A DNA stretch of 34,004 bases, taken from Planctomycetes bacterium DG_23. GTDB lineage: Bacteria > Planctomycetota > DG-23. The stretch is from positions 1-34,004 of the forward strand of contig LIZR01000007.1 in assembly GCA_001302825.1 (NCBI GenBank), written 5' to 3'. This document shows, one piece after another, positions 8,164 through 29,209 of the stretch; position 1 is the first letter of the stretch, and each line of letters opens with the position of its first letter. The notes under the pieces were generated by a model. It was not told where the DNA came from and did no database searches. It saw only the letters and a program-made list of their open reading frames with translations. Made by a program: the position numbers and the translations under genes.

Positions 8164-9957
8164 TGGGGGACGGGTGAGTCGTCGCCAGATTAGAGCCAGA
8201 ACAATCCCCGCGATGGTCATAACCGAAAGCGCCGCACCTAATATCACGCTTGCGGGCAAGAAATAAAAAGTGAGCGCAAACTCTCCGCCTGCCACCTCGG
8301 CAGCAATAAGGCCCTCTTCGGAGAGGGCATTCGTCGTTTTGCCGCCTGCGAAAACTCGCCAACCACGGTAAAAATTTTGATTGAGGACGAGGAGGTCGCG
8401 CGAATCACTTCTGCCCTCTACTCTTATTTGGTTACAGGAGAAAAAGGTAATACGCGGGGTTTGCTGGGAATCTGACAAATACGCCTCGCCTCGATAATGA
8501 TCCCGATCTTGAGGAATGGCGCACCATTTGAGATGCAAGGGGTCGGAGGCATTGACAGAGCCCTGATTCTGGAGGAAATTAAGATACATACCCAGGGCCA
8601 GCCGACCCGGTAATTGACCGCCGAGTTTGGGGAGGGGCCCGGCATAGTACTTGGCCCACCCCTGGTGAAAAGGGGCTTCTTCGGTTGCTTCAGGCGGCTT
8701 AAAGGTAAATACCGGTGAAAGTAAAGTCCGATGCACCAGTATCAGGTCCAGAGTGACCAGCGCCACCAGGAAATACGCCAGGAAAAGTAAAACCAACTCC
8801 CTTTTTCTTCTGCCACAGCGGATGACAAAATCTATCGGTTTCCACAGGCCCTCCCCGCAAGTCAGGGCCATAACCAGAAGCACCAGAACAATAAAGCGAA
8901 AGGGCAGATGTATAGAAGCGAAAATGGGTGTCTCCGCCAACAGGCCATAAAGATATACCGGAGAATCGATGCCGAAGGAAATGACCAGGGCCACCATACC
9001 TGCGCAAAATAGCGGCCAGTTCTTCTTGATGAAAAAGTAGCACCCTATGGCAAATAAGAAAATGGGGATGACGCCTATGTAGGCATCGTATTCCCAGGAG
9101 CCGTATCGGCCCACGAAATCAGGCCTCAAGGTCTGGCCTCTTTTAAGCAGTGCCCGGGCCAGGACCTTAAAGCCGGAGCCGGAATAATCCTGTCCCACCG
9201 GGACTGCCCTGTGGAAAAACTCTACCATAGGGATAAGTTTCACGGCCGAAAGGCCCAGGGCCAGTAAAAGGATGAGCATCATTCGGCTTAAGGGGCGAAT
9301 CTTCTTTTCCCGGAAACAAAGGAAAAAACCATAAGCAAAAAGTAAAACCCCGGACCAGATAAGGGGATAAATGGCACCGGAGAAGAAAAGAAGCGTGCAG
9401 AGGGAAGCGGTAAACAATGAATAGATGGGCCGCTGGAGAGAATGCTCGTAGCAGATGACTATCCAGGGCAGAAGCAAGATGAAGGTATGGCCCAGGTGAC
9501 CCACGGCGAGATTCATCGCCATCCAACCATTCAGCCCCCAGAGAACTCCGACCAGTATTGCCCCGGGCCCTTTGATTTTATACTTCAGCGCCAGACTATA
9601 TGCCCCAAACATACCGAGGAAAAGAAGGGCCAGGACTATTATCTTCGAGCCCACCACCTCACCCCAGATAAGTACGGCCAGGAAAAAGGGGGAAAGAGAA
9701 TCTTCAAAGGTATGCGCGAAAAGAGGATTGCCGCCGTGCAGATAAGGGTTCCAGAGGGGGAGTTGACCAAATTTCAGGATACATCTGCGGGAGATGCCCA
9801 GCCAGGTCAACCACTGCGGCCAGTCGTGGATGCCTAAATTTGCTATGGGAGAAAATAGCGGCAGAAGATAAATAAAAGCCAAGAGTCCGAAGAAAACCAG
9901 CCCAAGCCACCTGCCCTTGAAAGCGTCTTTCATATCTTTTTTCTCTCTATCTGCCAT
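8152..9957 (-). CDS. YfhO-like polytopic membrane protein (putative GT-C glycosyltransferase)
   Basis: 601 aa; IHDWPQWLTWLGISRRCILKFGQLPLWNPYLHGGNPLFAH, LLLPWIVICYEHS, C-terminal FYRGWRVFAGGKTTNALSEEGLIAAEVAGGEFALTFYFLP resembling YfhO family. Stop overlaps the convergent 6556-8163 gene by 12 bp. Confidence 0.78.
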   Translation of the reverse strand: MADREKKDMKDAFKGRWLGLVFFGLLAFIYLLPLFSPIANLGIHDWPQWLTWLGISRRCILKFGQLPLWNPYLHGGNPLFAHTFEDSLSPFFLAVLIWGEVVGSKIIVLALLFLGMFGAYSLALKYKIKGPGAILVGVLWGLNGWMAMNLAVGHLGHTFILLLPWIVICYEHSLQRPIYSLFTASLCTLLFFSGAIYPLIWSGVLLFAYGFFLCFREKKIRPLSRMMLILLLALGLSAVKLIPMVEFFHRAVPVGQDYSGSGFKVLARALLKRGQTLRPDFVGRYGSWEYDAYIGVIPIFLFAIGCYFFIKKNWPLFCAGMVALVISFGIDSPVYLYGLLAETPIFASIHLPFRFIVLVLLVMALTCGEGLWKPIDFVIRCGRRKRELVLLFLAYFLVALVTLDLILVHRTLLSPVFTFKPPEATEEAPFHQGWAKYYAGPLPKLGGQLPGRLALGMYLNFLQNQGSVNASDPLHLKWCAIPQDRDHYRGEAYLSDSQQTPRITFFSCNQIRVEGRSDSRDLLVLNQNFYRGWRVFAGGKTTNALSEEGLIAAEVAGGEFALTFYFLPASVILGAALSVMTIAGIVLALIWRRLTRPPSSE

Positions 9958-11575
9958 ATACCAGTTGAACCAAATCCTGGGCCGTGGGATGCCGCTCAGG
10001 GTCTTTTCTGGTCATAACCAATATGCGCACCGGAAAACGAAAATCCAGATTATCCATCTCCCGCTGGACGATGATTTCATCTCGACTAACTTCCGGGAGA
10101 GGATAATCATTCTCTTGAGCCCAGTCCCGGAACCTGCGCAAATTATCTTTCGGGGTAAGGAAAAAGACTATGCGCTCAAGGTCCTCTTCTTCATATTCCA
10201 ACCACCTCAGGGTAGCGTGCAGACCTATAGAAGGGATGTTAGAGTAAGCGGTGAAATAGGCTCCAGTCGCATCAAGTGCTGGAGCGGGGAATACGGCCAG
10301 GGTGGCTTCATACTTCTGGGCCAGGGGAATGAAGGCCTTGCTCAGTGTAGTAAGGTCAATTTCCCCGGACTGGTGCCAATCCGAAAGGGGGATGGAAGAT
10401 TGGCTCACCCAGTAATGATTGAAATCTGCCGTGGCCTTTACCGAGAAAATGGCCATAGCCGCAAAGGTGAGCAAAATGAAGACGCGAACGGCTCGCAGAC
10501 GCTGCATTCGCGCCAGGCCCTGGTCCCAGAGAGTGCCTGCGAATACGCCCGCAAGGACACTGGCCGGCACAATGGCCACCGCATAGTGTCGCGGCAAACC
10601 GGCTGCCAAGAAAAAGGAGGCCCCCAAAATTATCCAGAAGGCCACCACAATGAGTTTGATAAATTCCTGCCGCACCTTTCCAAAGGCCAGAAGCACCCCC
10701 ACAGTCGCAAGGCATCCCGCGGCCGGCCCCATATAATCATAACCATATAGAATATCCGAGCCCCGAAGATGAGTAAACCAACCCAAGAAAAGTTCGGCGG
10801 CAAAGCCGGCGAAACTGAGGGGCGCAACATAACCGGAAGCGAGTTTATAGTCAAACCAGTTATGTCGCCAGTTCCAGTAAAAATTTGGACTCAATATTAC
10901 AAAGGCCAAAAGCAGGGAAAGGTAGATTTCTTTGCGCCTCAGCCAGCGGCGATACGACCGAGAGACCAAAAGAAAGACGAAGGCCGTGGGCACTAAAAAG
11001 AAAATGGTTTCCTTGGTCAATAGTCCCAGGCCCAGGACCACCCCGCTTAAGAGCACAAGTTTACGGCTATCCCGCTTCAAGCCCTGCCAGAAGACGAAAA
11101 GCCATAGCGTTGCCAGAAAGAGGTTAGCCAGTTCCTGGATGATATACTTGGTAAAAAGTATATGCACTTCACAAAGGCCGAGAAAGAGAGCGGCAAAGAT
11201 GGCCCCGACCCTGGAGGTGGCCTCTCGGGCAAGCCAATAAATGAGCAGGATATGGAAAGTGCCCAGGAGAAGATGGCCCAGGCGATAGCGGAAGGTTTCG
11301 CCCCGGGCTATGGGCGAAGCGGAATGAATTAGATAAATCATAACCGGGCCGTGGTCCGTGCTGTGTATGGGTAGGTTGATCCGTCCCGGAGTAATGGATA
11401 TGGTGTTGGCCAAGACTACCCCCTCCGGTTCATCATCAAAAAAGGGCAGCCAACTGCCGTAAAAGCGAAGCAGGAAGGAAAACACCACCACACCGGCCAG
11501 GACGAGCAGGTATCTCTTTGATTTTCCCCCGCCGGCAGTGCCATAGTCAGCAGTTTCTATTAAGCCTTCAGTCAT
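9947..11575 (-). CDS. GT-C/PMT_2 (ArnT-like) membrane glycosyltransferase
   Basis: 542 aa; LRFYGSWLPFFDDEPEGVVLANTISITPGRINLPIHSTDHGP; same architecture as the 19178, 20808 and 22606 ORFs. Confidence 0.83.
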   Translation of the reverse strand: MTEGLIETADYGTAGGGKSKRYLLVLAGVVVFSFLLRFYGSWLPFFDDEPEGVVLANTISITPGRINLPIHSTDHGPVMIYLIHSASPIARGETFRYRLGHLLLGTFHILLIYWLAREATSRVGAIFAALFLGLCEVHILFTKYIIQELANLFLATLWLFVFWQGLKRDSRKLVLLSGVVLGLGLLTKETIFFLVPTAFVFLLVSRSYRRWLRRKEIYLSLLLAFVILSPNFYWNWRHNWFDYKLASGYVAPLSFAGFAAELFLGWFTHLRGSDILYGYDYMGPAAGCLATVGVLLAFGKVRQEFIKLIVVAFWIILGASFFLAAGLPRHYAVAIVPASVLAGVFAGTLWDQGLARMQRLRAVRVFILLTFAAMAIFSVKATADFNHYWVSQSSIPLSDWHQSGEIDLTTLSKAFIPLAQKYEATLAVFPAPALDATGAYFTAYSNIPSIGLHATLRWLEYEEEDLERIVFFLTPKDNLRRFRDWAQENDYPLPEVSRDEIIVQREMDNLDFRFPVRILVMTRKDPERHPTAQDLVQLVYGR

Positions 11576-19177: not shown

Positions 19178-20791
19178 TTAGAGCGGTCTGCCCATAACTA
19201 TTACAAAAAGACCTTTCAAATCCGGCTTAGAAGCGGTCTCGGTTTTGTCCATAAGCAAAATCTTCACCTCGAAATCAAAGGTTTCATCGCTGCCCCGGAA
19301 CTTACGTCGGGAGTGAAATTCCCGTGCCACGGGCCCGCTTACCTCGTAGCCGTTGTCCGCAGCCCATTTTCTGAAATCCTTCACTCTTAAAGAGGGGTCG
19401 AGAAAAACGATAATCCTCTTCTCGCAGCCCGGTGGGTAAGGATGCCAGAGCAGTTCCGGCTTTACTGTAATTATGGGAATGCCGGAATAGGCGCCGAAAA
19501 ATGCGCCCACTTCCTCCACAGAGCCGGAAAAGACCGCGAGCGTCGCACCCTCCTGGCGCGCTATTTCTATCAATCCCTGACTTATGGTGGTGCAGTCGGC
19601 CCAGCCTTCTCCTCCCAACCACCCTAAGTGCGTGGCCGAAGAGAGCAACGAGTACTCCTTGAACTTATGGGTAGCATAGCAGGAAAAGAGCAGCATCACC
19701 GCGCAGGCCCCCATCACCACTGCCTTGGCTGCCCTTCGCCACTGCCACATTTGCGCAAGCGGCAGGGAGGCAAGAGACGCCGCGGGCAAGATACTCACTG
19801 CGAAATGCCGCGGCATCCCTTGAAAAATAAATAGCGATATACCCACCACGGCCCAAAAACAAAAATGCAGGAATCTGGCCAGTTCACTTTTCTCATCGTC
19901 AGCCTTAAACACATATCGCAGAGTATAAAAAGCCCCCATTAAAAACACCAGCCCTATCACCGGACCCATATATTCCCAGCCCAGGTCGCTTTCAATATTC
20001 CCCGGAATCTTAGGAAAATAGTAACCCAGGAAAAGGTCAAATGTGTGCGCAGAGAAATTGAAGAGGCGTAAATACCCCAGTGCGTTACGTTTGAAAGCCA
20101 CAAATTGGTGCGTAATAGTCCAGTAGAGAAAAGGGCTGGAGATAAAGAAAAATAGAGCAAGGGAAAGATATAAGGCCGGCTTGGAAAACCAGCGCCTGCC
20201 CCGGCTCGTCAGGAGCAAATAAAGAAAAAGTCCCGGGACGATAAAGAGGATGGTCTCCTTTGCCAGAAACCCCAAGGCCCCGGCTACGGCAGCAGCAAAC
20301 ATCCATCCGGCCTTTTCAGTCTTTACGGCCTTAAAGAAAAAATAAAGGACGAGCGCAGCGAAAAAAAGATAAGTAATATCCTCCAGCATATTCTTGGAAA
20401 GAAAAATGTAAATCTCGTTCAAGGCGATAAGTACGGCAGCAAAAATCCCGGAAAGTGGACCAAATCCTTCTTTGGTGAGTGCGTAAACGGGAAAAATCAT
20501 CGCCGCCCCCAAAATCACATGTATAAAACGCCAGCCAAAAGGCGTGTCGCCGAAAAGAACCGAACTCACCCGGGTAAGATAAGGTTCGAATGGACCGTGA
20601 TATGTGCCGTAAACGGGGAGGAAAATTCTGCCGGGTTTTAGGGATATGTCTCTTGCCAAAAGCACTACATCCACACTATCATCTATGAAGGGCACCCCAC
20701 TGCCATAAATTCTGAGGCCCAAAGCCACCAGAAAAATAATCATCACTATTGCCAGCCGGACTTTTCTATTCATCTCAACTTCCGCTCGCAT
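19178..20791 (-). CDS. GT-C/PMT_2 (ArnT-like) membrane glycosyltransferase, paralog
   Basis: 537 aa; LRIYGSGVPFIDDSVDVVLLARDISLKPGRIFLPVYGTYHGPFEPYL; polytopic; C-terminal soluble domain as in the 20808 and 22606 paralogs. Confidence 0.83.
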   Translation of the reverse strand: MRAEVEMNRKVRLAIVMIIFLVALGLRIYGSGVPFIDDSVDVVLLARDISLKPGRIFLPVYGTYHGPFEPYLTRVSSVLFGDTPFGWRFIHVILGAAMIFPVYALTKEGFGPLSGIFAAVLIALNEIYIFLSKNMLEDITYLFFAALVLYFFFKAVKTEKAGWMFAAAVAGALGFLAKETILFIVPGLFLYLLLTSRGRRWFSKPALYLSLALFFFISSPFLYWTITHQFVAFKRNALGYLRLFNFSAHTFDLFLGYYFPKIPGNIESDLGWEYMGPVIGLVFLMGAFYTLRYVFKADDEKSELARFLHFCFWAVVGISLFIFQGMPRHFAVSILPAASLASLPLAQMWQWRRAAKAVVMGACAVMLLFSCYATHKFKEYSLLSSATHLGWLGGEGWADCTTISQGLIEIARQEGATLAVFSGSVEEVGAFFGAYSGIPIITVKPELLWHPYPPGCEKRIIVFLDPSLRVKDFRKWAADNGYEVSGPVAREFHSRRKFRGSDETFDFEVKILLMDKTETASKPDLKGLFVIVMGRPL

Positions 20792-20807: not shown

Positions 20808-22409
20808 TTAATTCAGAGAAACCAAAAGGTTCATAAGTTCTTCGCCCGCTTTCTCCTTCACCTGTTCTTCTTTCTCAAAAACAAGGATGCGCACGGGCCA
20901 GGAGAAGCTTTCTTCGCGCCCCTGGAATCTCCTGGAGGCTATCATAGTCTCTTGTTTATTCAAAGTCATTTTTAGATTATGTCTTTCTGCCCATTTCTTA
21001 TATCGCCTCCCCTTAACCCCCGGCACCAAAATTATCACTACCTTCTTCAAATCCTCTGGATAGACCTTCCTCCAGCGATGCTGCCTCTTGGAACTAACCA
21101 CCTTCCAGCCGGAATAGGCCTCCATAAATGGGCCGGCGGCGCCCAGGTTCTTCCCGGGCAAAACCACTAAGGTCGGCTGGTATTTCCCGATCACCTCAAT
21201 CAAGCCCTTACTCAAGGTGGTCATATCTATGGAGACCCACCCTTTGTCATCCGGGACACAGATGGTGCTGTGGGGGACCCAGTATTCCCCAAATTTATAA
21301 GTAGCAAAGGATGCTATGATGCACATCAGTACCAGGGCCCCGATGACCAGGTATTGCGCCCCCTTTTCCCTTTCCCAGCGCCAGAGACTACCTAAAGCCG
21401 TAGAGGCCAAGACACTCGCCGCGATGAGGGCCGGGAGAAAATGTCTTGCTTCCCCCCTAACAAAAAGAAGAGAAACTCCTGCTACAGACCAGAACACCAG
21501 ATAAACCATCCTTATAAAATTATCCCTCAATTTCACCGTAGAATAAAACACCCCCATTAAAAGGACCATCCCCGAGAAGTGGTCCATATATTCATAGCCG
21601 AACTCTGTTTTGTAGGCCTTACCGCCAATAAAGAAAAAACTGCCCAGGAAGAGATTAAAGGCCTTGCCTGAAAAGCGGAATAACTCCACAAGCGCGGCTC
21701 TGTGGGGGTGGTGAGGCCAGTTGCGAGTATAGCCCCACAATAAGTAGGGACTGAAAATGGCCAGGGAGATGAGAAGAGCCAGGTAAATCTCCTTGCGCTT
21801 CAGCCACTTCCAGTAACCTTTGGAAAAAAAGACGAAAAAGGCCAGCCCCGGTATGACAAACAGGATGCTTAAATGGGTTATCATCGCCAGCCCAAACACA
21901 ATGCCGGAAGCGAGCATCCATCCCCGGCTATCTAATCTTAAGGCCTTCCAGAAACAAAAGAGCAGCAAGGTGCCCAGGAACAACAGCAAGCCATGCTCAA
22001 TATTATATTTAGAGTAAAATATATGGACAGGATTAAAGGCCAAAACCGCCATAGCCAGCAGGGCTTCAGTCTGGCTCAGGCCGTCCTTGACCAGCAAATA
22101 GAGGAGGGGCAAAGTGAGTGTGCTAAAAAAAACGGTGGCGAATTGCCAACCAAAAGGGCTCTGGCCGAAGATTAATGAACTTAGCCGTGAGGCATACACC
22201 AAGAGGGGGCCGTGGTAGCCACCATAAAGGGGTAAACAGACGTGGCGGGGATTAAACGAAATATCCCGGGCTATGGGGACGATATCTGCGGCATTGTGGA
22301 TAAAAGGAAGCCAACTCCCCCAGAGCCTTAGTCCTGCGCCCAAGACCAGGATAGTCAGCACCAGGATTTCACTTCTTCCTAATTTTATTTTGGGCCAAGG
22401 TGCCTTCAT
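20808..22409 (-). CDS. GT-C/PMT_2 (ArnT-like) membrane glycosyltransferase, paralog
   Basis: 533 aa; LRLWGSWLPFIHNAADIVPIARDISFNPRHVCLPLYGGYHGP; C-terminal TTLSKGLIEVIGKYQPTLVVLPGKNLGAAGPFMEAYSGWKVVSSKRQHRWRK. Confidence 0.83.
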   Translation of the reverse strand: MKAPWPKIKLGRSEILVLTILVLGAGLRLWGSWLPFIHNAADIVPIARDISFNPRHVCLPLYGGYHGPLLVYASRLSSLIFGQSPFGWQFATVFFSTLTLPLLYLLVKDGLSQTEALLAMAVLAFNPVHIFYSKYNIEHGLLLFLGTLLLFCFWKALRLDSRGWMLASGIVFGLAMITHLSILFVIPGLAFFVFFSKGYWKWLKRKEIYLALLISLAIFSPYLLWGYTRNWPHHPHRAALVELFRFSGKAFNLFLGSFFFIGGKAYKTEFGYEYMDHFSGMVLLMGVFYSTVKLRDNFIRMVYLVFWSVAGVSLLFVRGEARHFLPALIAASVLASTALGSLWRWEREKGAQYLVIGALVLMCIIASFATYKFGEYWVPHSTICVPDDKGWVSIDMTTLSKGLIEVIGKYQPTLVVLPGKNLGAAGPFMEAYSGWKVVSSKRQHRWRKVYPEDLKKVVIILVPGVKGRRYKKWAERHNLKMTLNKQETMIASRRFQGREESFSWPVRILVFEKEEQVKEKAGEELMNLLVSLN

Positions 22410-22605: not shown

Positions 22606-24216
22606 TTATTCCAAAGGGACAAGGAGGTTCATAAGTTCTTCGCCTCCTTCTTCTCCCACTTGTTCCTTTGTCTGGAAAACCAGAATACGAACGGGCAAGG
22701 AGAAGTTCTCCACGTGCCCCCGGAATCTCCTGGAGGCCGAAACTTCCTCCTCCTTGCGCAGGGTCATTCTCAGATTTTGCCTTTCGGCCCACTGCTTGAA
22801 CCTTTTCTCCCCCACCCCCGGCGCCAGAATAACCACTGTCCTCTCTAAATCCTCAGGGAAAATCTTCCTCCAGCGGTGCTGCCTTTTGGAACTAACCACC
22901 TTCCAGCCGGAATAGGCCTCCATAAATGAGCCGGTGGCGCGCAGGTCCTTCCCGGGCAAAACCACTAAGGTCGGTTGGTATTTCCCGGTCACCTCAATCA
23001 AGCCCTTAGCCAAAGTAGTCATATCTATGGGATGGCCTTCGTCCGAAATAGCCACCGGAACTTCAGCGCTGGTAATCCAGTATTCCTCGAATTGATGACT
23101 GGCCCAGGCACTTGAGGCAAAAAGGGCGGCAAAAAGCACCAGAACTCCAAGGCGTGCCCACTTTTCCTTTTTCCAGCGCCAGAGGTCCGCCAAAGCGACC
23201 GAAGCCAAGGCCGCCGCCGCCAGCACCAGGGGCACAAAATGCCTCGCTTGCCCCACCACCAGAAGCAGCGAAGCCGCCACCGCCGGCCAGAATACGAAAT
23301 GCATCATCCTCACCAAATCGTTCCTTACTCTCCTCAGCGAATAGAGCATCCCTATTACCAACACCAGCCCGGAAAGCCGCCCCATATATTCGTAGCCGAA
23401 ATCGCTTTCAAGAGAGATATCTCCCATAGGAAAAAATCCGCCCAAAAAGAGGTCCAGGGTGATACCGTAAAAGCCAAAAATCTCAAAGTATTTGGCCGCG
23501 TTATTGTAATCGAACCAATTATGCCGCCAGTTCCAATAAAGATAAGGCGAAAAAATAGCCAGAGCAATGGCCAGAGCCAGATAAGTTTGCGGCCTTCGTA
23601 ACCACTTCCGGCCCCTGGAAGAAAAAAGCAAAAAAAGAAAAAGTCCCGGAAGAGGAAATATGGTTCCTAATTGGGAAATCATTCCCAGACCCAGAGATAC
23701 GCCGGCAAGAATCATCCACATTCCGCTTTCTCTCTGGAAGGCCCTCCAGAAACAAAATAGCATAAGCGCGGTGGTGAAAAATATCGCCGGCGTCTCCACA
23801 TTGTAATCGGAGTAGAATATGTGCACCTCATTAAAGGCCACCAGGGCCATAGCCATCGTCGCCTCCAACTTCCCCAGCCCCTCGCGCACTAAAAAAAACA
23901 AAATGACAAAACTCAAAACCGCAAGAATTATGCCCCCGAGACGCCAGCCCATAGGGCTCTGGCCGAAAACCAGCGCACTCAGGTAAGCCTGGTAAGTTGA
24001 AAAGGGGCCGTGGTCGCTGCCGTGGGCGGGAAGGTTAAACCTCGAAGGCTCAAGACTCACATCCCGGGCAATGGGAATTATGTCCGTCCCATCCTCCCTG
24101 AAGGGAAGCCAACTGCCCCAGAGCCTCAGTCCCACGCCCAAAATGAGGACAATTACCACCAGGGTCTCAAGTTTACTTAATTTCATCTTCAGCCAGGAAG
24201 ACTCCATCCCCCCCAT
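22606..24216 (-). CDS. GT-C/PMT_2 (ArnT-like) membrane glycosyltransferase, paralog
   Basis: 536 aa; LRLWGSWLPFREDGTDIIPIARDVSLEPSRFNLPAHGSDHGPFSTY; C-terminal TTLAKGLIEVTGKYQPTLVVLPGKDLRATGSFMEAYSGWKVVSSKRQHRWRK. Confidence 0.83.
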   Translation of the reverse strand: MGGMESSWLKMKLSKLETLVVIVLILGVGLRLWGSWLPFREDGTDIIPIARDVSLEPSRFNLPAHGSDHGPFSTYQAYLSALVFGQSPMGWRLGGIILAVLSFVILFFLVREGLGKLEATMAMALVAFNEVHIFYSDYNVETPAIFFTTALMLFCFWRAFQRESGMWMILAGVSLGLGMISQLGTIFPLPGLFLFLLFSSRGRKWLRRPQTYLALAIALAIFSPYLYWNWRHNWFDYNNAAKYFEIFGFYGITLDLFLGGFFPMGDISLESDFGYEYMGRLSGLVLVIGMLYSLRRVRNDLVRMMHFVFWPAVAASLLLVVGQARHFVPLVLAAAALASVALADLWRWKKEKWARLGVLVLFAALFASSAWASHQFEEYWITSAEVPVAISDEGHPIDMTTLAKGLIEVTGKYQPTLVVLPGKDLRATGSFMEAYSGWKVVSSKRQHRWRKIFPEDLERTVVILAPGVGEKRFKQWAERQNLRMTLRKEEEVSASRRFRGHVENFSLPVRILVFQTKEQVGEEGGEELMNLLVPLE

Positions 24217-24245: not shown

Positions 24246-24274
24246 ATCTTACGAGAAATGCTCCTGATTGTCAA
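24246..24274 (-). promoter_or_regulatory. Sigma-70-type promoter for the 24216 PMT gene
   Basis: Minus strand TTGACA (24274-24269), 17-bp spacer, TAAGAT (24251-24246). Confidence 0.6.
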
Positions 24275-24390
24275 GACCAATTGCTTGCGCCCATAAGGCT
24301 TGACAAGGAAGGGACTTTGTGAAATATTATATTTTTATGGGCGCCGGGGTTTGCTTACTCCTGGCAAAAGGAAAGAAGCCCAAATTTGCT

Positions 24391-24409
24391 AACTGCCAAA
24401 ATGGCAGTT
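24391..24409. promoter_or_regulatory. Perfect dyad AACTGCCA-AAA-TGGCAGTT, candidate enhancer/operator for dnaK
   Basis: 8-bp arms, 3-bp spacer, no mismatch; centre about 90 bp upstream of the sigma-54-like -24 element. Confidence 0.55.
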
Positions 24410-24491: not shown

Positions 24492-24507
24492 TGGCACATA
24501 GTTTGCA
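24492..24507 (+). promoter_or_regulatory. Sigma-54 (RpoN)-type -24/-12 promoter motif upstream of dnaK-clpB
   Basis: TGGCAC-ATAGT-TTGCA; GG and GC separated by 10 bp; matches the consensus TGGCAC-N5-TTGCW at all specified positions; about 78 bp before the dnaK ATG. Confidence 0.7.
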
Positions 24508-24540
24508 CTTAATCTCACGAGAGTAATTCCTGTTTTACTT

Positions 24541-24565
24541 GACGAGCGAAAATACTTTGTTCGTC
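24541..24565 (+). promoter_or_regulatory. RNA hairpin in the dnaK 5' leader next to the RBS
   Basis: GACGAGCGAA-AATAC-TTTGTTCGTC, 10 pairs including two G-U, ending a few nt before GGAAAGGAG. Confidence 0.5.
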
Positions 24566-24584
24566 TCGCGGAAAGGAGCAAAAG

Positions 24585-26534
24585 ATGGCTGAAAAGGTTT
24601 CGAATAAGATTATCGGCATCGACCTGGGCACTACGAACTCCGTGGTCGCGGTGATGGAAGGCAGTAAGGCCACGGTAATAACCAATGCCGAAGGCTCGCG
24701 CATTACGCCCTCGGTGGTGGCCTTCACTGACCGCGGAGAGCGCCTGGTGGGACAACTGGCCAAACGCCAGGCCATCACCAATCCCACAAACACCGTCTAT
24801 TCCATCAAACGCTTTATGGGGCGCAGACATAATGAGGTGGAAGAAGAGGAGAAGATGGTGCCCTTTGAGATTGTGGGCGGGGCTAATGAACTGGTCAAGA
24901 TAAAGGTGAGGGACAAGGACTACACTCCGCCGGAGCTTTCCGCTATGGTGCTGCAGAATCTCAAAGAGACGGCGGAAAATTATCTGGGCGAGAAGATAAA
25001 ACGCGCGGTCATCACCGTTCCTGCCTATTTCAACGACTCTCAGCGCCAGGCCACCAAAGAGGCCGGAATAATCGCTGGATTTGATGTCGAGCGTATCATC
25101 AACGAGCCCACCGCCGCATCTTTGGCCTACGGGCTGGAGAAAAAGAAAAATGAGAGGATCGCCGTGTTTGACCTGGGCGGCGGCACCTTTGATATATCCA
25201 TTCTGGATGTGGGCGAGGGCGTCTTCGAAGTTATGGCTACAAACGGCGATACCCACTTAGGCGGCGATAATTTCGACCAGGTGCTCATCGACTGGATTGT
25301 CGCCGAATTCAAAAAGGACCAGGCCATAGATTTGTCCGGCGACCCTATGGCTATGCAGCGCCTCAAAGAGGCCGCAGAAAAGGCCAAGTGCGAACTTTCC
25401 ACCCGTCCGGAGACGGATATTAATCTTCCCTTCATCACCGCAGACCAGACCGGGCCCAAGCACCTGCAAATGAAACTCACCCGCAGCCAATTTGAGCAAA
25501 TGGTGGAGCATCTGGTGGAACGCACCCGCGGCCCGGTTATGCAGGCTATGGATGATGCCAAAATAAGCCCGGAACAGATTGATGAGGTCATCCTGGTGGG
25601 CGGCGCTACCCGAATGCCCTGCATCCAGGCCACGGTGAAGGAGATTTTCAAGAAAGACCCGCACAAGGGCGTAAATCCCGATGAGGTAGTGGCCGTGGGC
25701 GCGGCCATTCAGGCAGGGGTGCTTGCCGGCGAGGTCCGTGATGTGCTTCTTCTGGATGTTACCCCACTTTCTCTGGGCATTGAAACGCTCGGCGGGGTGA
25801 TGACCCGTCTCATCGAAAGAAATACCACTATCCCTACCAAAAAGACGGAAACATTCACCACCGCCAGCGACAATCAGCCCGCGGTGGATATTCATGTGCT
25901 TCAGGGCGAGCGGCCTATGGCCCCCAGCAACCGCACCCTGGGACGCTTCCAACTCATCGGTATCCCTGCTGCCCCTCGGGGCATCCCCCAGATTGAGGTC
26001 TCCTTTGATATAGATGCCAATGGCATACTCAATGTATCCGCCAAGGACCTGGGCACGGGCAAGGAACAGTCCATCGTCATCAAGGCCTCTTCCGGCCTTT
26101 CCGAGGAAGAGGTGGAGCGCATGCGCAAGGAGGCCGAAGAGCACGCCCAGGAGGATACTAAAAGGAAGGAACTGGTGGAGGCCAAGAATATGGCCGACCA
26201 GATTATCTACACCACCCGAAAGACCCTGAAAGAACACGAATCCAAAGTAAGCGATGCGGAGAAGAAAGATATTGAGCAAGCGCTTAAGAAACTGGAGGAA
26301 CTTAAGGAAAAAAGCGAGGATGCCGCAGCCATAAAGAAGGCCATAGAAGACCTTACCCAGGCCTCGCACAAACTGGCCCAGGCGATGTATGAGGAGGCGG
26401 CTAAAGCCAGAGGCGCCCAGGCCGGCCCGAGACCTGAAGGCGAGGCCGAACCCAAACGCGAAGCACCTAAGGAGGGCGAGGTCATCGACGCCGAATTTGA
26501 AGTGAAGGACGAAGGGGAAAAAGAAGAAAAATGA
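24585..26534 (+). CDS. dnaK: Molecular chaperone DnaK (Hsp70)
   Basis: 649 aa; [67 protein letters not shown]-terminal [12 protein letters not shown]. Confidence 0.99.
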
Positions 26535-29209
26535 TGCGATTGGATAGATTTACCATTAAGGCGCAGGAGGCGCTGGCGCGGGCCCAGGAACTGGCGCAGA
26601 AAAGTCAGCACCAGGAGGTGACGCCGCTACATCTTCTGGCCTCGCTCCTTGCGGAAGGAGAGGGGCTGGTGGGCCCACTGCTTGACAAACTGGGCGCCGA
26701 CAGGACTCAAGTTGAAGCGAAATGCCTGGACGCCCTGGGGAAACTTCCCCAGGTATCCGTGGCCGGGCAAGCAGGCGCGGCCGAGACTTATATATCTCGC
26801 GCGCTCAAGGGCCTCCTGGATAAGGCCTCGGATGAAGCGGCCAAATTAAAAGACGACTACATCTCCACCGAACACCTCTTGCTTTCCCTGGTAGAAAGCG
26901 AGGATGAGGCGAGCAGGATACTCGCTTCCTCCGGGGTTAGTCGGGATATGCTTCTGGCTGCGCTGAAGTCCCTGCGCGGTCAGACGCGGGTCACCGACCA
27001 ATTTCCCGAGGATAAATACCGCGCCCTGGACCGCTACTGTGTGGACTTAGTGCGTATGGCCCGGGCCGGGAAACTCGACCCGGTAATTGGCCGCGATGAT
27101 GAGATACGCCGGGTGATTCAGGTGCTATCGCGGCGCACCAAGAATAATCCTGTGCTCATCGGCGACCCGGGTGTGGGAAAAACGGCCATCGTGGAGGGTC
27201 TGGCCCAGCGCATAGTTGCCGGGGATGTGCCGGATAGCCTGAAAGACCGCCGGGTAGTGGCTCTGGATATGGGTGCGCTTATTGCCGGGACAAAATATAG
27301 AGGCGAATTTGAAGACCGCCTGAAGGCGGTAATTAAGGAGATTGTGGCTTCGGACGGCGGGATAATCCTCTTTATTGATGAACTGCATACCGTGGTGGGG
27401 GCAGGGGCCGCGGAAGGGGCGGTGGATGCCTCCAATTTACTTAAGCCCGCTCTGGCCCGGGGGGAACTGCGCTGCGTGGGGGCCACTACCCTGAATGAAT
27501 ATCGCGAGCATATTGAAAAAGATGCGGCCCTGGAGCGGCGCTTTCAGCCCATCTATACCGATGAGCCCACGGTGGAGGAAACCATAGCCATCCTGCGCGG
27601 GCTCAAAGAACGCTATGAGGTGCATCACGGTGTGCGCATCCGCGACTCCGCCCTGGTTGCCGCGGCAGAGCTCTCCCAGCGCTACATCACCGACCGCTTC
27701 CTACCCGATAAGGCCATAGATTTGGTCGATGAGGCCGCCAGCCGTCTGCGCATAGAGATAGATAGTATGCCCCAGGAACTGGAGAAAGTCCAGCGGCGCA
27801 TCGTGGCCCTGGAGGTGGAGCGGGAAGCGCTCAAGAAAGAAAAGGACGAGGCCTCAATGGCGCGCCGGGGGCGGGTGGAAAAAGAAATTGCGGCGTTGAA
27901 AGAAAAAAGCGCCGCCCTTCGCGCCCAGTGGGAAAATGAAAAGAAGGTCATAAAAAAAATTCAGCAACTCACCAGCCGCATAGAAGAGGCCAGGATTGAG
28001 GCCGATAAGGCCCAGCGCCAAGGCAATCTGGAGAAAGTGGCCCAACTGCGCTATGGGGTGATAGGAGAGGCTACGCGGGCCCTGGAAGAAGAGAACAAGC
28101 ACTTAGGAGAAATTCAAAAAGATATGGCTTTGCTCAAGGAAGAGGTGGAGCCGGAAGACATCGCCGAGGTGGTGGCGATGTGGACCGGGATTCCGGTAGC
28201 CAGACTCCTTGAAGGCGAGCGGGAGAAACTCCTGAAAATGGAAGAGCGTCTGCGGGAGCGGATTGTAGGGCAGGATGAGGCCGTTTCCGCAGTCTCCGAC
28301 GCCATCCGCCGGGCCAGAGCCGGCCTGCAGGACCCGCGCAGACCTCTGGGCTCCTTTCTTTTCCTGGGGCCCACCGGCGTGGGCAAGACGGAACTATGTC
28401 GGGCCCTGGCTCAGTTCCTCTTTGATGATGAAGATGCTATGACGCGTCTGGATATGTCGGAATTTATGGAGCGGCATTCGGTGGCCCGGCTCATCGGCGC
28501 GCCTCCGGGATATGTGGGCTATGAGGAAGGAGGCCGGCTCACCGAGGCTATCCGGCGGCGGCCTTATTCGGTAATCCTTCTGGACGAGATAGAAAAGGCA
28601 CACCCGGAAGTCTTTAACATACTTCTACAGGTGCTTGATGATGGGCGGCTCACCGATGGCCACGGCCGCACGGTAGACTTCAAGAACACGGTGGTGGCAA
28701 TGACCTCAAATATAGCCTCGCCGGTAATTCAGGAGATGGCCGGCAAGGCCACTGATGAGGATGTGGCGAAGCAAGTGAGACTGGCTTTGAGGCAAGAGTT
28801 CCGTCCGGAATTCCTCAACCGCATAGATGAGGTCATAATATTTCACGGTCTTAATAAAGAGCATTTGAAGCGCATCGTGGAGATCCAACTGCGAGATGTA
28901 GAGCGCCGTCTGGCGGAGCACCATATTTCCCTGAAGATTACGGATGCGGCCAAGGAGCATCTGGCGGAAGAAGGTTACGACCCGGTATTCGGGGCCAGAC
29001 CCTTAAAACGCACCATCGATAGCCGCATCCTCAACCCGCTTTCACTGGATGTGCTTTCGGGCAAATTCGGTGAGGGGGATGTGGTAAGCGTGGATGTGAA
29101 GGATGGGGAATATACCTTTGCAGAGACCTCGGAGGAAATAGAAAGCCCCCGCTTTACCCAGGCCAAAGCAACGAAAAAGGCCAAAAAACAAAAAAGGCCG
29201 CAAGCCTGA
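26531..29209 (+). CDS. clpB: ATP-dependent chaperone ClpB
   Basis: 892 aa; Clp N domain, two Walker A ([16 protein letters not shown]), coiled-coil middle domain between them, [17 protein letters not shown] overlap with dnaK. Confidence 0.98.

Follow-up and report, generated by a model that had tools for sequence, protein, structure and literature searches.

Probable sigma-54 control of a dnaK-clpB operon through an upstream activator site, and signs of a phylum-wide chaperone regulon

The dnaK-clpB operon in the window (the whole 34,004-nucleotide stretch of DNA that was analysed) appears to have a genuine sigma-54 promoter, with an activator site farther upstream. Both elements, the promoter and the operator, are well supported by sequence comparison. 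Very probably, the operon is opened by an enhancer-binding protein (EBP) of the receiver-AAA+-Fis type, which would act at a palindrome and of which this genome encodes a candidate on contig C166 (the C166 EBP); the same arrangement would serve a chaperone regulon throughout the phylum.

The promoter element, TGGCACATAGTTTGCA at 24492-24507, consists of TGGCAC (24492-24497), ATAGT (24498-24502) and TTGCA (24503-24507), with 10 bp between the GG (24493-24494) and the GC (24505-24506). The original prediction had it matching the RpoN consensus at every specified position, with exact GG-10 bp-GC spacing; letters and coordinates are as given there. It was also correctly placed in a real intergenic gap and oriented toward dnaK: 368 bp lie between a divergent glycosyltransferase-like reading frame on the minus strand and dnaK on the plus strand. 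The features of this region are as follows.

22606-24216, minus strand: glycosyltransferase-like ORF, divergent from dnaK, bounding the 368-bp gap
24300-24328, plus strand: sigma-70-like TTGACA-17-AATATT, possible basal promoter with a long leader (10/12 matches, TG before the second hexamer)
24391-24409, no strand assigned: palindrome AACTGCCA-AAA-TGGCAGTT, predicted sigma-54 activator site (perfect 8+8 inverted repeat)
24492-24507, plus strand: putative sigma-54 -24/-12 promoter element TGGCAC-N5-TTGCA (exact consensus, genome count, dnaK-linked conservation in relatives)
24517-24520, plus strand: predicted transcription start (from known sigma-54 promoter geometry, about 12 nt past the -12 GC)
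24541-24565, plus strand: possible small leader hairpin (z-score -1.0; 31/200 shuffles fold equally well)
24572-24578, plus strand: Shine-Dalgarno-like AAAGGAG, read from the sequence
24585-26534, plus strand: dnaK (Hsp70, 649 aa; PF00012, E 1e-262)
26531-29209, plus strand: clpB (892 aa; Clp_N, AAA_2, ClpB_D2-small)

Transcription from a start near 24518 would leave a leader of about 67 nt, in line with the 65 nt or so first estimated. The leader hairpin, no better than its shuffles, was dropped as a meaningful structure. Since clpB starts at 26531, within the last codons of dnaK, the two genes are probably co-transcribed. A similarity search against plasmid DNA matched only at the conserved 5' end of dnaK. 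The divergent neighbor is one of four similar membrane glycosyltransferase-like ORFs on the minus strand of the window (9947-11575, 19178-20791, 20808-22409 and 22606-24216), apparently a duplicated family.

The dnaK element is the only exact -24/-12 match in the window. Genome-wide there are four, against none for the reversed control, in 2,020,164 bases on 173 contigs (84.6% complete); about one per genome would be expected by chance, by our own estimate. Two of the four precede type IV pilin genes; the others precede dnaK-clpB and a short TPR-like ORF followed by groES-groEL. Thus, half of the sites serve the two main chaperone operons. Type IV pilin genes are a classic RpoN target; here, their sites (L203:579 and 1696; G000:C130) share a contig with a kinase and the EBP L005, and their probably PilSR-like control is useful as an internal reference. 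The TPR-like ORF (L045:955-1374, minus strand) encodes 139 aa with a sub-threshold match to TPR_2; many relatives have a receiver ORF in its place at the head of groES-groEL.

The decisive companion of the dnaK element is one that the original prediction did not report: the palindrome, whose core TGCCA-N3-TGGCA occupies 24394-24406. Its distance to the -24 element is 98 bp here and 100-101 bp in three relatives of the same class, where the dnaK -24/-12 is near-consensus. An alignment of the four same-class dnaK promoters retains the palindrome and the -24/-12 as its main conserved blocks, the remainder having diverged. An enhancer site paired with a promoter is the established layout for sigma-54, and at 98 bp the conserved palindrome falls within the range of upstream activating sequences (roughly 80-150 bp upstream). 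The groESL -24 element of the same genome has a close copy, CAATTGTCATTTTGACAGAAA, 132 bp ahead of it.

Genome-wide, TGYCA-N3-TGRCA occurs ten times. Five copies are upstream of a -24/-12, in the promoters of dnaK, groESL, and the receiver gene, the latter two having operators in tandem; the other five (C1, C3, C117, C119, C158), for which no -24/-12 stands at a fitting distance, were treated as chance occurrences. Operator and promoter show weak helical phasing, with p about 0.006 at the best of 11 periods, and it is not relied upon. The receiver-domain gene (L095:3613, minus strand; G000:C98) encodes about 138 aa, and its two operators are 40 bp apart. No groES follows it here, but its homologs in relatives head groES-groEL operons; the protein is a possible feedback part. 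A second dnaK-like gene (L201:993-1601, minus strand; G000:C129) is shortened or cut by the contig end, and the 1.6 kb read there contains neither operator nor -24/-12.

Is the pair a general feature? The original prediction proposed scanning the dnaK upstream regions of relatives, and the motif and its palindrome proved to be conserved together, in same-class relatives and broadly across the phylum. The phylum in question is, judged from sequence, most likely the Planctomycetota; in the DnaK tree the Planctomycetota loci L039, L040 and L043 fall among the relatives. Deep resolution in this tree is poor, and L024 and L034, two mistranslated rows, have very long branches, so the assignment depends on those three loci jointly. 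The pattern TGNCA-N3-TGNCA, followed after 75-135 bp by a -24/-12, gave 110 matches in 61 genomes of the phylum, versus 15 when reversed. Of 91 examined sites (seven matches in G055, which is AT-rich, two in G030, and a small number elsewhere are outside this set), 73 directly precede genes for DnaK, GroES/GroEL, Hsp20, ClpB or a receiver-domain ORF. Among the less certain Hsp20 calls, some depend on 28-34% identity; Pfam confirmed one of these. The receiver ORFs span about 120-170 aa (Response_reg was confirmed in three cases), and groES-groEL usually comes next downstream. Bases that the pattern leaves free are also conserved: C before the operator core (65/88), G after it (48/88), and T preceding the fixed TTGC (52/73). 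Tandem operators are spaced 39-43 bp apart in 10 of 14 instances.

A stricter pattern applied to 151 genomes gave 48 matches and none when reversed. Held-out loci, from 90 previously unused genomes, lie without exception (16/16) upstream of DnaK, GroEL/GroES, Hsp20 or receiver-groES-groEL genes. Under the strict pattern, 25 of the 61 genomes have no chaperone-linked pair. Several dnaK promoters outside it have degenerate operators about 101-105 and 141-145 bp ahead of a weaker -24/-12. Four genomes (G019, G026, G048, G049) have an EBP gene adjoining dnaK and no strict pair; there, EBP and dnaK may be on a shared transcript, or the operator may be a variant. Together, these comparisons suggest a phylum-wide sigma-54 chaperone regulon that includes dnaK, groESL, hsp20 and clpB. 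The original prediction envisaged an unusual circuit for one dnaK-clpB unit. Its sigma-54 component is supported, by rpoN and by conservation; its singularity is not, the operon being one predicted member of a regulon found across many families.

The genome also encodes the proteins that such a promoter calls for, as the original prediction had asked. RpoN is present (PF04552, E 5.9e-55), along with five proteins that have a full sigma-54 activation domain; a GAFTGA-type loop is found among these AAA+ EBPs. (Two further matches, both weak, belong to AAA+ proteins about 860-900 aa long, and the ClpB of the window is one of the two.) Among the five, the C166 protein comprises a receiver (PF00072), a sigma-54 activation domain (PF00158) and a Fis-type domain (PF02954). 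The gene directly preceding it encodes a small histidine kinase (HisKA, HATPase_c). This kinase-EBP pair is located apart from dnaK, and no operator was seen near its genes.

A candidate for the stress-linked activator that was to be looked for was also found. Many relatives encode a receiver-AAA+-Fis protein next to dnaK, and the C166 EBP is its counterpart here. An EBP gene lies directly upstream of dnaK in eight relatives; a histidine kinase gene usually stands just before the dnaK-linked EBP gene, and the order kinase-EBP-dnaK recurs in many relatives. The C166 EBP is nearest to these dnaK-linked proteins, at 45-60% identity, whereas the other four reach 37-49% with lower bit scores; its best match is a dnaK neighbor in 16 of 60 relatives. 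All 18 dnaK-linked EBPs in the tree cluster with C166, away from L003, L004, L005, and nearly all second-best EBPs, the deep forks having modest support (88-93% SH-aLRT). The recognition helix reads GERTLYRK, or nearly so, throughout the dnaK-linked EBPs and is variable in other EBPs. Moreover, a strong match to C166 goes with the operator-promoter pair: 32 genomes have it and 7 do not, against 4 and 18 where the match is weaker (Fisher p 1.5e-6, in a test that ignores relatedness and at one of four thresholds tried, which gave p 1.5e-6 to 6e-4). The C166 EBP is thus the likely activator of dnaK-clpB.

This suggests the following model. Sigma-54 RNA polymerase would be held as a closed complex on TGGCAC-N5-TTGCA at 24492-24507. 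The receiver-AAA+-Fis protein would bind CTGYCA-N3-TGRCAG about 90-145 bp upstream, sometimes at two sites about 40 bp apart, loop the DNA to the polymerase, and open the complex by ATP hydrolysis, yielding dnaK-clpB mRNA. The common operator and promoter pair would likewise drive groES-groEL and the lone receiver protein here, and hsp20 and clpB in relatives, so that a sigma-54 regulon would substitute for sigma-32 or HrcA control. From proteotoxic stress, the signal would pass through the kinase to a phosphorylated activator and on to chaperone transcription. We infer that the EBP binds the palindrome and is phosphorylated, and that heat or misfolded protein provides the signal; the receiver protein at the head of many groESL operons would possibly act in feedback. 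A more ambitious version would apply to most of the Planctomycetota: a dedicated kinase would sense damaged protein and phosphorylate the dnaK-linked EBP, which would activate dnaK, groESL, hsp20 and clpB at CTGYCA-N3-TGRCAG operators, and the lone receiver, heat-induced and co-expressed with groESL, would act as a phosphate sink for feedback. We hold this version tentatively, at somewhat under even chances.

Control of dnaK is usually exerted by sigma-32, by HrcA at CIRCE, or by HspR, and the original prediction saw no CIRCE in the gap. Indeed, no CIRCE (TTAGCACTC-N9-GAGTGCTAA) with at least 14 of 18 matches was found within 450 bp before dnaK, here or in the relatives examined. Nor did any of the 61 genomes yield hrcA, in a search that was positive in 7 of 14 named control genomes. 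With neither gene nor operator found, HrcA/CIRCE control was rejected. Likewise, no RpoH exceeded the cut-off of a proteobacterial model in the 61 genomes: the best match in this genome scores 150 bits against a cut-off of 323, and a truncated fragment in G051 scores 301. With sub-threshold matches only, sigma-32 control was set aside as well.

The gap also holds a sigma-70-like sequence. The original prediction paired TTGACA at 24300-24305 with TATTAT at 24325-24330, at 19 bp; the first hexamer is real, but a scan pairs it with AATATT at 17 bp. This sequence may also serve dnaK as a basal promoter alongside sigma-54. Two inverted repeats, GCGCCCATAA/TTATGGGCGC (24287-24296 and 24335-24344) and TTGTCAAG/CTTGACAA (24268-24275 and 24299-24306), surround it together with a divergent minus-strand TTGACA, and are possibly an operator between divergent promoters.

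Could this sequence be the main promoter instead? If so, dnaK-clpB would be transcribed chiefly from 24300, the -24/-12 would be minor, and the palindrome would act much as in HrcA/CIRCE control, as a repressor operator or an attenuator hairpin. The TG-bearing TTGACA-17-AATATT is in keeping with such an arrangement, as are the inverted repeats flanking TTGACA and the terminator-like hairpin score of the palindrome. However, the palindrome keeps to a set range of distances from a conserved -24/-12 across families and chaperone genes; a repressor of an upstream sigma-70 promoter needs no such fixed distance, which argues against the repressor reading. With HrcA and CIRCE both absent, we consider it highly improbable. 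Another alternative, a chance match in a long intergenic gap, starts from the estimated one exact match per genome, and is already contradicted by conservation: orthologous recurrence, the paired operator, the excess over reversed patterns, and the held-out loci leave it virtually no credence.

A closer competitor accepts the sigma-54 promoter and the palindrome as its activator site, but assigns the site to another EBP (or EBPs), the dnaK-linked family having a different job. The genome offers candidates: two of its five EBPs, L003 and L006, lack a receiver domain, and a near-consensus -24/-12 lies upstream of L006. In many families, however, it is the C166 type alone whose gene is linked to dnaK; this type also follows the operator-promoter pair from genome to genome, and its recognition helix hardly varies. 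L005, which shares its contig with the two pilin genes, is probably PilR-like. Assignment to another EBP is unlikely, though it deserves more weight than either of the other alternatives. Activation by the C166 type remains the preferred reading.

Sigma-54 is linked to stress genes elsewhere. In Escherichia coli, the psp operon, ibpB, and rpoH P6 are examples at stress and chaperone genes; there, in contrast, sigma-54 is a side branch to sigma-32, and the activators are not known to be encoded beside dnaK. In Myxococcus xanthus, the HsfA/HsfB two-component system controls lonD; it too ties an NtrC-type response regulator to heat-shock expression, with a different target gene. The hrcA-grpE-dnaK operon of Chlamydia has a sigma-54 promoter beside a sigma-66 promoter (PMC8762339). 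This chaperone operon of the related PVC group likewise combines a sigma-54 promoter with an activator of the AtoC type, but HrcA is a main heat control in Chlamydia, whereas here HrcA is absent and the operator is common to groESL, hsp20, and clpB.

Sigma-54 control of chaperones was itself already predicted in 2025, so the circuit was partly foreseen: in both Planctomycetota and Bacteroidota, chaperone COGs are enriched in predicted sigma-54 promoters (PLoS One 2025, PMC12316311). That study predicts the same promoter class at DnaK, GroEL, GroES, GrpE, DnaJ, IbpA, and ATP-dependent proteases, in Planctomycetia and less in Phycisphaerae. It proceeds from promoter enrichment by COG and class, and no terms for palindromes or upstream activating sequences appear in its main text; added here are the operator, the operator-promoter regulon, the gene-linked activator, and the absence of HrcA. 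The literature covered, which mostly excludes subscription papers, contained no prior account of this operator or of an EBP linked to dnaK.

Within the same phylum, heat induces dnaK, groEL, clpB, hsp20, grpE, and dnaJ in Rhodopirellula baltica, with rpoH, rpoE, and rpoN unregulated, and the authors inferred a significantly different cascade (PMC2754498). The unchanged rpoN mRNA in R. baltica is no counter-argument to control via phosphorylation of an activator.

Bacterial heat-shock control is usually described in terms of sigma-32, HrcA, HspR, or CtsR. In a large phylum, neither HrcA nor a clear RpoH seems to be present, and an activator that uses ATP and works from an enhancer seems to take their place. 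Chaperone synthesis would then be governed by a phosphorelay in place of a repressor or an unstable sigma factor. With candidate kinase, activator, operator, and targets named, the question open since the R. baltica study becomes directly testable.
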